Below are positions 22,288 through 27,233 of a DNA stretch of 27,233 bases, in pieces (positions within the stretch are counted from its first letter, which is position 1; the number at the start of each line of letters is the position of its first letter). This stretch comes from a virus, in the IMG/VR virus record IMGVR_UViG_3300005826_000034, positions 1-27,233 of that record; one strand, 5' to 3'. The notes under the pieces are model-generated. The model saw nothing but the letters and a program-made list of their open reading frames with translations, searched no databases and had not been told where the DNA came from. The translations under genes and the position numbers were made by a program.

Positions 22288-24496
22288 CGTCGTTCTCCTT
22301 CGGTTCGGGGGTGGTCATGATCTTGGACGCCGTTTGCACGCGCGTCTCGCGGATCTTGTTGGCGGTCTGAACCATCATCTTCTCCAGGTCTTGCCGGTGG
22401 CCGATGCTGCCCTTCATCACCTCCGCTTCGACACCCGCGCGCTGCTGCTCGGCGTTGATCGCGGACGTAACCTGCTCCACCTGCATCTCGGCCTGGGCTT
22501 TCAACTGAATCAGCCCCGCCTCGCGCATGTAGTCCGCCTCCGTCTCGCGCATCTTCGCCTCGTGCGCGGCCATCTGCGTTTCGATGTCCGCCACCTTGTC
22601 GGCTTCGCGAAGTTGCAGATCGGCCTGTAGCTTCGCCTGGATGCGGGCCACGTCACCTTCCGATTTGGCCTTCTCCTTCTGCGCCTCCGGGTCGGGTTTC
22701 TCCTGGCCCTGCTGCGCCTTCTGCTGCGCCATAATGGCCTCGATGGCCTTGTCGATGACGCCCTCGATCTCGTCGGAACCGCGAAAGCCCGCCAACGTCC
22801 ACTGCAACATCTGGAGCATGAATGGCATGGTCTGCGGGTCAAACTGGATGATGGGCCCCGCCGCGGTCATGAACTCGGAAACGCCCTTCAACACCTGTGC
22901 GCGCTGCGCCTGCAACTGCGCGTAGTCCGCAAGCGCGAGCGATTCCGCTTTCACTTCCACCTGGAGCCGGGCGCGCACGGGCTCTTTGATCCGCGCGATA
23001 GCCGCCTCGATGAGCTGCGGATCCTCCATCAGCGCTTCGACGTTGGCGTACAGCGCGATGCTTTGCGGCTCGAAATGGCGCGCGATGACTTCGGCTTTCA
23101 GCGCCATTAGTTGCGTAGCAAACCGCGCGTACTGCTCCTGCAACTGCTGGATACGCGCGGATCCGAACTTCACTTTCTCGTCGGTCTGTCCAACGCCCTC
23201 GTACTGGTTCGCGAGCGAGCCGCGCATCACGTCGGCCATGCCCGAGACGTTGTAAAGCAGCTCGATAGTCTCGTCACGGAGCTGACGCAGATTCAGGAGG
23301 GTGGCAACCAGGTCCGCGATGGGTACCCACTCGATAGCGCCCTTGAGCCCGCCTTTCTCTCCAAACAGCGCCCAGTTCTTCACCGGGATGAGTACGTTAT
23401 CCACGCCCTCGTTGAAGATGCGCTGCAACTCGGGCGTGCTGTCGTCGTACGCGCCGACTGCCTTGACGGCATCCGTGATCACGGCGATGCGCGTCTGTAG
23501 CTGGTCGATCTCGTTGTAGAGATCTTCGGTCAGGTGGTAGTCCGGCGTCGGGCGGTAGATCGAGCTTGTCGGGTTCGCCATGAAAAACGTAGGCGACGGG
23601 AAGAACGCGCCGAGCTCCAGCGGATCCGGGGTGGTCTTGAGGATGGCATCCACGCCATCGCTCCACTCGTACACGGTGCGTGTTTCCTTGCACCAGATCT
23701 GCCACACCTCGGCCTTCAACCAGTAGTTGTTGTCCTCCGGTATGTCGGACGCCTCCGACTTGGCGTCCACATTCATCTTCTGCTGCTTGTACGTCAGGTC
23801 GCCCGCGCGCTTCTCTCCGTAGCGCTCGGTGGCCTCATCCTTGGTGTACCAGTGCCGGTAGGCCAGCCAGCGCAGATCAGCCGCCGTACGCGTCCAGCTC
23901 CACAGCACGTCGCGCCAGTGCACGTACGCCACCGGCGCAGCCTCGGACACGACGTACTTTTCCGGTTCCGGCGGCGCCGGCGGGGGCATGCCGATCTCGA
24001 CTGGCTGCGGGGGCGGCGTGCGCTCGCCCGTCTCCACCTCGTAGCGCACCCGCGCGCAGCCCAGGCCCGGTACGAGACGATCCAGAAGCGCGGTCGTCAG
24101 CACGGATTCGTACTGCACCGGGTTCTCGGCCATGTCGTTGTTCAGGAGGCGTTCCATGATCACCGCGGCCACACGCGCCACGTCGTCTTTCGAGTCGTCG
24201 TAGCGGCGCTTCACGTCCACCTTGGGAACGCGCCCGTAGAGCAGGCTGTAGAGCGTTTGCACGTTGCTGTAGAAGATGTTTAGACGGAACCCCGCCGTTT
24301 CCGGTGTGCCCACGTCGGAACTGGTGGCTTCACGCTCGTCTATGTAGCGCTTGTGGATGCGGTCGGCTTGCTTGTGCCACCGGCGCAGCATCGTCTGAGA
24401 CGCGGCGATCTCGTCGGACCAGTACGCGGCCTTGCCTTGCGGCGTGGCCGGGTAGTCCTTCAGGGACGTGATGCTCGCTGTGTTCGTGTAGGCCAT
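22277..24496 (-). CDS. Portal protein
   Basis: 739 residues; the ATG overlaps the terL stop (TAATG). The protein forms the dodecameric vertex through which DNA is packaged and ejected. Typical portal phrases are the N-terminal AYWSDEIAASQTMLRRWHKQ, the stretch RLNIFYSNVQTLYSLLYGRVPKV, LVPGLGCARVRYEVE, and a central IDQLQTRIAVITDAVKA region. The last ~150 residues are a long charged coiled coil (within EKAKSEGDVARIQAKL and ETQMAAHEAKMRETEADYM), reminiscent of the barrel extension of large podovirus portals. Length is near that of the P22-like class. Gene order terS-terL-portal-scaffold-capsid supports the call. Confidence 0.85.
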   Translation of the reverse strand: MAYTNTASITSLKDYPATPQGKAAYWSDEIAASQTMLRRWHKQADRIHKRYIDEREATSSDVGTPETAGFRLNIFYSNVQTLYSLLYGRVPKVDVKRRYDDSKDDVARVAAVIMERLLNNDMAENPVQYESVLTTALLDRLVPGLGCARVRYEVETGERTPPPQPVEIGMPPPAPPEPEKYVVSEAAPVAYVHWRDVLWSWTRTAADLRWLAYRHWYTKDEATERYGEKRAGDLTYKQQKMNVDAKSEASDIPEDNNYWLKAEVWQIWCKETRTVYEWSDGVDAILKTTPDPLELGAFFPSPTFFMANPTSSIYRPTPDYHLTEDLYNEIDQLQTRIAVITDAVKAVGAYDDSTPELQRIFNEGVDNVLIPVKNWALFGEKGGLKGAIEWVPIADLVATLLNLRQLRDETIELLYNVSGMADVMRGSLANQYEGVGQTDEKVKFGSARIQQLQEQYARFATQLMALKAEVIARHFEPQSIALYANVEALMEDPQLIEAAIARIKEPVRARLQVEVKAESLALADYAQLQAQRAQVLKGVSEFMTAAGPIIQFDPQTMPFMLQMLQWTLAGFRGSDEIEGVIDKAIEAIMAQQKAQQGQEKPDPEAQKEKAKSEGDVARIQAKLQADLQLREADKVADIETQMAAHEAKMRETEADYMREAGLIQLKAQAEMQVEQVTSAINAEQQRAGVEAEVMKGSIGHRQDLEKMMVQTANKIRETRVQTASKIMTTPEPKENDDDT

Positions 24497-25938
24497 TACT
24501 GGAGCCTCATGCGCTCGAAAGTGTATTGCGTCCGCTCACGGTCGCTGAACAGCGCGTCCAGAGTGTAACCCGGCGGCTGGATGATCGTCGTTGAAGGCAC
24601 CAACAGCCCCGCGGCGGGCTGTGCGCGCTCGTGTCGGGCGCGTAGCGTCTTGGGTTGCTGGCACACCAAGGCGAAGTACCGGAAGGCGTCAGCACCGTCT
24701 GAGGCCCAATCGTGCAGCGGCGTGTCTACGAACCGCTTCATGATGTCGTCGTAGCGCCGCCGGTAGGCCCGCAGCGCCTCGATGCCCGCGAAACAGTGTT
24801 CCAGGTTGAAACGGCAGTAGGGCAGGATCATCCGCGCGGCGTCTATGCCCTGCTGCACGCGCAGGTTGGGAACCTTGCGTACCGGGTACGGCGCACGGTG
24901 GTAGTCCAGTGGCCGGTCAAACTGGTCGGTCTGCGGCGGATCCCAAAATTGCTCAATGGTCGAGCGCTTGGTCGCCAGCGTCTTGGCTTCAGCGTCTTGT
25001 GGCAACCAAATCGTGCCGTACTCGTAGCCCTTGGCGTCCAGCAGATCGAAGTAGAACACCAGGTCGTGGCCCGAGAATTCCTCGTAGTCGATCAGGTCGG
25101 GGCCTTCGGGGCCGTCGTGCCAGAACCAGATAGCCGTGGAATCCTTGCGCCCCAGGTCGAGCGCGGCGTGAACAGGCGTGCCGGGTACGTGTTCCGGGAT
25201 GCCGGCGAGAATGTGGCCGCGCTCCTCCAGTTTCGAGATCTGCGAGGCGTAGTACGTGCCCCGTACCGCGGCGTTCGGATTGCACTCCATCTCCTGTTCC
25301 CATTCTTCGTCCGTCATCTGCGCGCGCATCTCGTCCAACGCTTCCGCGGGCAGAATCCCGGACTGGCTCGCCTTCAGCATCAGCTCATACCAGTTGGGTA
25401 GCTGCTTGGCGCGCTGCCACACCTGGTAGAAATGGTTCTTGCCCTTGATGGTGCCGATGAACACCGCCCACCCGTGGCGATCCATGAGCGTGGGCAACAG
25501 CACTTCACCCCACAGCCCCGGACGGCAGTCGCCGTACTCATCGAGAATGAGCCCGTCGAGGTAGATGCCGCGCAAGCTGTCCGGGTTGTCCGAGCCGTAC
25601 AGGCGGATGGTGGCGCCGTTCAGGAGGGTGACCGACAGCTCCGATTCGCGGATGTCTTTCGCGGACGCGATGAACGGGCGCGCCATGTCCTTGAGGTAGG
25701 TCCACGCGATGGCCTTAGCCTGGCTGTAGAGCGGCGCAACGTAGGCGTAGCGCGGGTTGTGCTTGTGGGAGTAGAGCGCCCTGATCACCAGCTCAGCCAC
25801 GCACGCTACCGTCTTGCCCGCGCGCCGGTGCGCGACGATGCACGCCCACCGCTCGTTGCGCTGATGCAGCGCGATGAACTGCTGCCGTGGCTGATACGGC
25901 AGCTCGCGAACGTCGGAAGGCGCGAGAAGGGCGGACAC
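24496..25938 (-). CDS. terL: Terminase large subunit (ATPase and nuclease)
   Basis: 480 residues counted from a GTG at 25938. Pumps DNA into the head and cuts it. Walker A is AHRRAGKT (36-43), Walker B LILDE (D133, E134), the coupling motif GTIKG (162-166), and the RNase H-like nuclease starts at LDLGRKDST (D261, D266). The GTG has no ribosome site. A better start, the ATG at 25983, overlaps the terS stop as ATGA and has AAGGAA seven bases upstream. It is in frame but separated by a TGA at 25950-25948. Either the true start is the GTG, or the gene has acquired, or the sequence wrongly shows, a stop at codon 12. Confidence 0.9.
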   Translation of the reverse strand: MSALLAPSDVRELPYQPRQQFIALHQRNERWACIVAHRRAGKTVACVAELVIRALYSHKHNPRYAYVAPLYSQAKAIAWTYLKDMARPFIASAKDIRESELSVTLLNGATIRLYGSDNPDSLRGIYLDGLILDEYGDCRPGLWGEVLLPTLMDRHGWAVFIGTIKGKNHFYQVWQRAKQLPNWYELMLKASQSGILPAEALDEMRAQMTDEEWEQEMECNPNAAVRGTYYASQISKLEERGHILAGIPEHVPGTPVHAALDLGRKDSTAIWFWHDGPEGPDLIDYEEFSGHDLVFYFDLLDAKGYEYGTIWLPQDAEAKTLATKRSTIEQFWDPPQTDQFDRPLDYHRAPYPVRKVPNLRVQQGIDAARMILPYCRFNLEHCFAGIEALRAYRRRYDDIMKRFVDTPLHDWASDGADAFRYFALVCQQPKTLRARHERAQPAAGLLVPSTTIIQPPGYTLDALFSDRERTQYTFERMRLQ

Positions 25939-25979
25939 TGCGCTGAATCAGCCCGCGGCTACTGTGGGTTTGCTGGTGG

Positions 25980-26597
25980 TCATGCGATTTCCTTCAGTCG
26001 TATCGGCTTCGCATCCAGGGTTTCGTGATACGTGTCGAGTGCTGTGCGCGGCATGACATCCTGGTTGATCTGGATATTCACCGTGGTGGGCGCCTGCATG
26101 GCGTTGGTGTGCACCAGTGAGCCGTCCATACGGTTCAGCTCACGCAAGGCCGCGATGGCGATACCCGGGTCACGCGTTTCGCTGTTCGCCGCGATGCGCC
26201 ATAGGACGTTCTTGCGGAGCTCGACACTCGGGCCAGCAACGGTCGCGTCATGCTGGCCCAGGAGGCGGACGTACTCGCGAACGCCAGGGTGCTGCGTCAA
26301 CAGGATGCTGACACGGGTTGCCGAGTAGCCGAGCTGCTGCGCGATGTCTTTGTTGCTCTTGCCGCGGTGGTGTAAACGGGCCACTTCGGCCTGGCGCGGG
26401 CGCAGTGCCGACGCGGCGCACTGCGTGAGGGCCCGCAGCGATTGGAGGTGCTTGAAGTAGCGGTCGTTCGCTGGATCTTCGTGGTCCAGCAGTTCTTCGG
26501 GCGCGTGAAAACGCGTGACGCCAACATCGGCGTCATCGTCATCGAGCGGATCGAGATAGTCCGCTACCTGCGCTGCGTTTACTCGTCGGCGTGCCAT
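25980..26597 (-). CDS. terS: Terminase small subunit-like DNA-binding protein
   Basis: 205 residues from the ATG at 26597; a TTG at 26633 extends the frame by 12 codons but has no ribosome site and coincides with a likely -35 box. An acidic N-terminus (YLDPLDDDDADVG) precedes a helix-turn-helix of response-regulator/sigma-4 style at ~65-105 (LRPRQAEVARLHHRGKSNKD...LGYSATRVSILL). A helical region follows, then ALRELNRMDGSLV, common in small terminases. It recognises viral DNA and hands it to TerL, whose gene follows. The repeats upstream of this gene are candidate binding sites. Confidence 0.75.
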   Translation of the reverse strand: MARRRVNAAQVADYLDPLDDDDADVGVTRFHAPEELLDHEDPANDRYFKHLQSLRALTQCAASALRPRQAEVARLHHRGKSNKDIAQQLGYSATRVSILLTQHPGVREYVRLLGQHDATVAGPSVELRKNVLWRIAANSETRDPGIAIAALRELNRMDGSLVHTNAMQAPTTVNIQINQDVMPRTALDTYHETLDAKPIRLKEIA

Positions 26598-26604
26598 GGG
26601 CGCC

Positions 26605-26633
26605 CGTATAGCACGCGCTACTGCATGGGGCAA
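26605..26633 (-). promoter_or_regulatory. Candidate late promoter in front of terS
   Basis: On the - strand TTGCCC (26633-26628, 4/6), a 17-bp spacer and TGCTATACG, an extended -10 (TGnTATAcg; hexamer 26610-26605). The predicted first base is about 26598, next to the terS ATG, which has no ribosome site. The message could therefore be leaderless. Confidence 0.5.
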
Positions 26634-26742: not shown

Positions 26743-26774
26743 GCACCGTTTGCACGGACAGCTTGCGACGGTGC
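26743..26774. repeat. 7-bp inverted repeat GCACCGT/ACGGTGC
   Basis: Perfect arms at 26743-26749 and 26768-26774 with 18 bp between; the loop contains most of the first CGTTTGCACG repeat. Confidence 0.5.
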
Positions 26775-26876
26775 CGGCGTTTGCACGCGCCGCTGGCGCC
26801 GCTGGCGCGCTTCGAGCCTGTGACCCACGCCCACCGCGCCGGCTAGCCGCCCGCGCCTGCTACCGGCGTTTACACG
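26747..26876 (+). repeat. Three direct repeats CGTTTRCACG
   Basis: CGTTTGCACG at 26747 and 26778, CGTTTACACG at 26867, all on the + strand; the last two share a preceding GG. Same motif as seven copies inside genes elsewhere. Three direct repeats next to terS recall the way small terminases bind iterated sites. Confidence 0.65.
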
Positions 26877-26886
26877 GGCTCCGGGC

Positions 26887-26930
26887 GCCTGTGCATGCTG
26901 TGCATGCTCGCCACGGGGGCATGCACAGGC
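26887..26930. repeat. Perfect 12-bp inverted repeat containing TGTGCATGC
   Basis: GCCTGTGCATGC (26887-26898) and GCATGCACAGGC (26919-26930), 20 bp apart, with a further TGTGCATGC between them at 26899. Confidence 0.75.
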
Positions 26931-27032
26931 TAAGTACCTGATTTATCAGCATTTTCTGATCTGCTGTGTTTGCTCTGTGCATGCTCGAAATGGGGCATAC
27001 ACAGCCTAAGCCGCTGATATTGTTAGCGTTTT
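26899..27032 (+). repeat. Imperfect 57-bp direct repeat, period 77 bp
   Basis: Copy 1 26899-26955 and copy 2 26976-27032. Both begin TGTGCATGCTCG, contain GCATRCACAG-CTAAG, CTGAT and end GCRTTTT; roughly three quarters of positions agree when aligned by eye. Copy 2 carries its own inverted repeat, CTGTGCATGC (26975-26984) with GCATACACAG (26995-27004). Confidence 0.7.
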
Positions 27033-27038
27033 GGCCTT

Positions 27039-27216
27039 TGTGTGTGCATGTGTTCTCTTTTCGGGGCAGAAGTCAGTCACTCCACGGCTGGCCGGCCCAG
27101 CGGCTGGGGCCGTCAGCCGCCGCCAGGGCTCCCTGGCCTATTCCCCCTATTATTACTCTAATTCCTACCTATTCTCAGAGTCAGTTATCATCGAAAAGAG
27201 AACACATGCACACACA
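27039..27216. repeat. Perfect 25-bp inverted repeat flanking 128 bp
   Basis: The left arm (27039-27063, ending TTCTCTTTTCG) is exactly complementary to the right arm (27192-27216, starting CGAAAAGAGAA). Each arm contains GTGCATG. Twenty-five perfect pairs cannot be chance. No flanking target-site duplication is evident. Confidence 0.85.
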
Positions 27217-27233
27217 CACGTGAAACCCCGCGC

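Follow-up and report, generated by a model that had tools for sequence, protein, structure and literature searches.

Start of terL and a putative 11-codon ribosome relay behind terS in a virus contig

Introduction

Where does the large terminase gene begin in IMG/VR virus record IMGVR_UViG_3300005826_000034, and does an in-frame stop codon break it? The record is identical with the whole stretch of DNA analysed here (27,233 bases, referred to as the window) and is possibly a fragment of a virus genome. On the minus strand, two codons compete for the start of terL. The upstream one, the ATG 25983-25981, overlaps the terS stop TGA 25982-25980 as ATGA, has AAGGAA ahead of it and encodes MTTSKPTVAAG before a TGA is reached. 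The codons for F, S and A then lead in the terL frame to the downstream one, the GTG at 25938. The original prediction, made from the letters alone, took the ATG for the best terL start and the TGA for an interruption of the gene. All of these letters are exactly as it described; the interpretation is not supported by the positions at which related viruses start their terL genes. Overall, the locus poses an unremarkable question of gene start, and its coupling arrangement is of modest interest.

Gene layout of the locus

The genes are arranged in the order terS, terL, portal, and head and tail genes. The features under discussion are the following.

25980..26597, minus strand: terS, small terminase subunit; ATG at 26597, stop TGA 25982-25980
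25989..25994, minus strand: Shine-Dalgarno-like AAGGAA of the mini-ORF; duplex of -5.7 kcal/mol
25948..25983, minus strand: 11-codon mini-ORF MTTSKPTVAAG, read from the sequence; ATG 25983-25981, stop TGA 25950-25948
25939..25947, minus strand: spacer of 9 nt from the mini-ORF stop to the probable terL start; 8 nt in the counterpart of relative L171
24496..25938, minus strand: terL, large terminase subunit, 480 aa from the probable start GTG 25938-25936 to a TAA stop

The gene at 24496..25938 encodes a phage large terminase (TerL), a subunit of the DNA-packaging motor, as family models matched over its ATPase region. These include Terminase_6N (E=6e-9, 36.3 bits against a cut-off of 22) and phrog_2 (E=2.5e-35). 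Its frame is uninterrupted from the GTG at 25938 to the TAA ending at 24496. The evidence for terS comprises an HTH-like match that scores under the Pfam cut-off, 51-52% identity to the TerS of L171 and 25% identity to that of L031 (E=3e-11); the assignment also rests on the adjoining terL. A TTG at 26633 is an alternative possible terS start.

Relatives were found by alignment-based scans. Among phage records there was no match to TerS and no close DNA relative, the best covering 22% of the query at 69%. Single-protein scans of viral and genome contigs with TerL or portal returned nothing usable.

The arrangement at ATG 25983 had been described as the layout used throughout the operon. Most starts do possess a Shine-Dalgarno sequence, but the ATGA overlap is no general rule: portal starts with a 1-nt TAATG overlap, and g17327 with a GTG that overlaps TAG and lacks a strong ribosome site.

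The contig end upstream of terS harbours an inverted repeat of 34 nt (27030-27063 and 27192-27225, 88% complementary, arms 128 nt apart). Repeated CTGTGCATGCTCG units lie at 26898-26918 and 26975-26995, and CGTTTGCACG units at 26747-26896. This region may serve packaging or regulation.

Position of the terL start

The start of TerL was surveyed in 198 distinct relatives, taken from IMG/VR and from phage records, by measuring the in-frame stop and the possible starts upstream of x-Y-x-P-R. This is the first motif common to all TerLs compared and lies upstream of the HRRxGK P-loop region. In these relatives TerL usually starts 5-13 residues ahead of the motif. The GTG at 25938, which is the only ATG, GTG or TTG between TGA 25950-25948 and the motif, gives 13 residues (-39 nt), whereas ATG 25983 would give 28 residues (84 nt). 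Within the stretch that the ATG start would need, an in-frame stop occurs in 165 of the 198 relatives and in 60 of 67 near relatives. Near relatives with a single possible start have offsets of -9 to -39 nt, the sole exception being L173 at -99.

Individual proteins agree with the survey. The TerL of L178 has its ATG at exactly -39, the position of the GTG, with a TAA directly ahead. The TerL of L031 begins MGAQLAEINLTYEPR and aligns with MSALLAPSDVRELPYQPR of the window from its first residue, and an in-frame TAA stands three codons ahead of its ATG. The chain in PDB 4zni (Thermus phage-type; entry 'Phage terminase large subunit', solved ATPase domain) is a remote homologue in the ATPase region (E=1e-13) with the same starting place, aligning from residue 6 of the window TerL. 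Read from the GTG, the N-terminal core is complete, with x-Y-x-P-R 13 residues in and HRRAGK about 36 residues in, as in the relatives.

Judged by these comparisons of sequence, terL very probably starts at GTG 25938. The gene is most likely intact, and the TGA does not break it. In relatives, TerL largely begins at the GTG position or close to it and the sequence ahead is unrelated, which had been named in advance as the observation that would speak against an upstream start. An alignment of TerL N-termini had also been proposed, and it revealed no relative with an MTTSK-like sense-coded tail; the tail of L173 is long but unrelated. The two closest relatives are nevertheless awkward for the GTG start, since L171 has no canonical terL start and L173 carries a 33-residue tail from a single possible start.

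The contrast in ribosome sites that drew attention to the ATG is real, the anti-Shine-Dalgarno duplex being -5.7 kcal/mol at ATG 25983 and -2.5 kcal/mol at GTG 25938. The GTG value is unexceptional, because relatives with one possible terL start have a median of -3.0 and 39% of them are as weak as -2.5 or weaker. RNA structure over the GTG or the ATG was not more stable than in shuffles.

Several relatives have unusual terL starts of their own. In L091, L092, L093, L256, L257 and L259 there is no ATG, GTG or TTG between the in-frame stop and x-Y-x-P-R. The sole plausible start is an ATA 15 nt ahead of the motif, which overlaps the upstream stop as ATAG (-4) and is preceded by a Shine-Dalgarno-like AAGGA. 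Initiation at AUA is suggested by L256, which keeps ATAGACGCTCAA but differs in the sequence ahead of it, and the recurrence of the pattern in several contigs argues against a simple sequencing error. The open stretch L171:1443-1538 likewise lacks a canonical terL start; the intervening ORF stops 8 nt ahead of an ATA at 1527. In L147, L148, L150, L151, L155, L156, L157 and L159, the only possible start ahead of the motif is CTG (or ATT). In L282 and L283, just before 2464, the terL frame has a stop 9 nt ahead of the motif and no start, and ATG GCT TTT TAC occurs in another frame, which could reflect a frameshift, an error or an unusual start.

The short reading frame between terS and terL

If terL starts at the GTG, the signals at ATG 25983 belong to something else. 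The closest relative found, L171 (IMG/VR contig 3300031539_004741), has a TerL 62% identical to that of the window. As in the window, a Shine-Dalgarno sequence and an ATG sit on its terS stop (AGGAA and TGATG) and open an ORF between terS and terL. That ORF is a different gene of 91 codons, against 11 in the window; its stop lies 8 nt ahead of the likely terL start, and the L171 terL, unlike that of the window, has no ATG, GTG or TTG start. In the next relative, L173, the contig does not reach terS, and a 90-codon ORF directly precedes terL. BLASTP found no match between the two ORFs, while a global shuffle test indicates that they are homologous (Z=7.6, 0 of 1000 shuffles). Other ORFs lie between terS and terL in L031 and L178. 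In view of this arrangement in the four relatives, ATG 25983 most plausibly opens whichever frame comes next after terS.

The mini-ORF shares its position and its start signals after terS with the 91-codon ORF of L171. From this shared layout, ATG 25983 is probably the start of an intervening cistron that now has 11 codons and is a leftover of the relatives' small gene. TGA 25950-25948 is most likely the ordinary stop of this separate cistron and not an interruption of terL. No copy of the L171/L173 ORF was found in the window. Searches by tblastn with these ORFs gave no match at the mini-ORF site, where 11 codons are too short, and the 11 residues resemble no part of either ORF. The window, L171 and L173 form a clade (support 100/92), within which a nested position of the window among L171/L173 rests on a weak fork (98/42). 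We infer that the intervening gene was lost in the window rather than gained by L171 and L173, a direction that hangs on this weak fork.

The coding signal of the 10 codons after ATG 25983 was not significant, being equalled in a fraction of 0.10 of shuffles and 0.16 of non-coding windows. An apparent coding score, obtained against off-frame coding DNA, disappeared in these two comparisons.

Spacing and the proposed relay

An upstream ORF was in range in 63 near relatives, and in 61 of these terL starts between -14 and +16 nt from the stop of that ORF. Spacings of -4, -1 or 0, typical of translational coupling (PMC12548453), are the most frequent. The window is an outlier if the distance is taken from the terS stop (41 nt) but fits if it is taken from the mini-ORF stop (9 nt). 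Reinitiation in E. coli drops by 80-100% (PMC10666635) or to below 3% (PMC2268962) when the gap is 38-40 nt; the spacing rules of the host here may differ. With the terS stop 41 nt away and the mini-ORF stop 9 nt away, the mini-ORF plausibly relays ribosomes to terL. Because of the spacing in near relatives and the literature on reinitiation gaps, a relay is the most economical mechanism. However, terL might manage without a relay, as some systems are reported to show coupling across gaps of about 40 nt or longer (PMC12548453).

In the proposed mechanism, ribosomes that terminate on terS would use the 4-nt ATGA overlap to start again, read the 11 codons and stop 9 nt ahead of GTG 25938. They would then reinitiate at this GTG, which has a weak ribosome site. 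Synthesis of TerL would in this manner remain coupled to that of TerS despite terS ending 41 nt upstream. Given the GTG start, it is reasonably probable that the mini-ORF acts as such a translational relay. Comparable geometry was found at 7 of 454 stop triplets of the minus strand, and at 1 of 454 when a ribosome site was included, a count framed after the case had been seen.

A short upstream ORF coupled by reinitiation is an already known kind of arrangement. For bacterial leader ORFs, a role in supplying the next gene with reinitiating ribosomes has been proposed (Korolev et al. 2016, PMC4833913). In many bacterial phyla their distance peaks at 10-11 bp ahead of that gene, a scale on which a 9-nt gap counts as 10 (PMC4833913). 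The mini-ORF has two features of such a short upstream ORF, namely its own start and ribosome site and a stop 9 nt from the next start. Unlike those leader ORFs, it sits inside an operon and overlaps the stop of the upstream gene, so that 'relay' would describe it better than 'leader'. The iraD leader ORF of E. coli (PMC5574718) is likewise short, lies upstream, has a ribosome site of its own and drives translation of the next gene by coupling. Its stop overlaps the iraD start and the regulator CsrA acts on it, whereas the window has a 9-nt gap and no known regulator. No paper on a mini-ORF between terS and terL was found in the literature searched, which is weak evidence of absence. The original prediction had offered a leader peptide that keeps TerL low as one option. 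A short leader ORF with reinitiation survives from that proposal, but the geometry suggests that it would deliver ribosomes rather than hold TerL down.

Alternative explanations

Taken as a whole, the reading that terL is intact from the GTG and that the mini-ORF is the stub of an intervening gene and serves as a relay is favoured on balance, with considerable doubt attached. Its main competitor retains the GTG start and regards the upstream ATG...TGA frame as chance or an inert relic without a role; terL would then be translated either through weak initiation of its own or through coupling to terS across the 41 nt. All the evidence on the start position applies equally to it, the mini-ORF has no significant coding signal, the common frame of ATG 25983 and GTG 25938 is a 1-in-3 coincidence, and weak ribosome sites are usual for terL among relatives. 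However, it leaves the window an outlier among near relatives when spacing is taken from terS alone, and the Shine-Dalgarno sequence and ATG on the terS stop are matched in L171. We consider a frame without a role possible, though rather less likely. A stronger version of the relay, in which the mini-ORF is selected to set the TerL:TerS ratio and reflects a wider habit of the clade, in which terL initiation relies on arriving ribosomes, is unlikely. The relatives in which terL seemingly starts at an AUA overlapping the terS stop as ATAG would be the extreme of such a habit.

The remaining explanations make the ATG a past or present start of TerL. If TerL was formerly made from ATG 25983 with a 28-residue tail, a nonsense mutation created the TGA and the gene now depends on reinitiation at the GTG. 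The single frame and the good Shine-Dalgarno sequence at the ATG fit this history, and the long tail of the second closest relative, L173, makes it possible in principle. Yet no relative has a similar sense-coded tail, the alignment of the window tail with the L173 tail does not surpass that of shuffles (p 0.88), the stretch contains an in-frame stop in most near relatives, and the equivalent ATG in L171 starts another gene. Such a mutation is therefore quite improbable. A sequencing or assembly error at the TGA is conceivable in a single metagenomic contig, but correcting it would give TerL a long tail that nothing in the relatives requires. Because the ATG and the GTG share a frame, only a substitution within one codon matters, and an error is very unlikely. 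Readthrough or recoding of the TGA into a longer TerL has the slimmest chance of all. The frame is open on either side of the TGA, but nothing upstream of it is conserved and near relatives have in-frame stops here. Moreover, TGA is the normal stop of terS and of many other genes in the window, and wholesale recoding, which had already been thought unlikely, finds no support.

Significance

A likely annotation trap is corrected by this analysis: ATG 25983 has the better ribosome site, yet terL does not start there, and the gene is unbroken. The relay, if true, would be a compact case in which the two subunits of the packaging motor are kept translationally linked after the loss of the gene between them.
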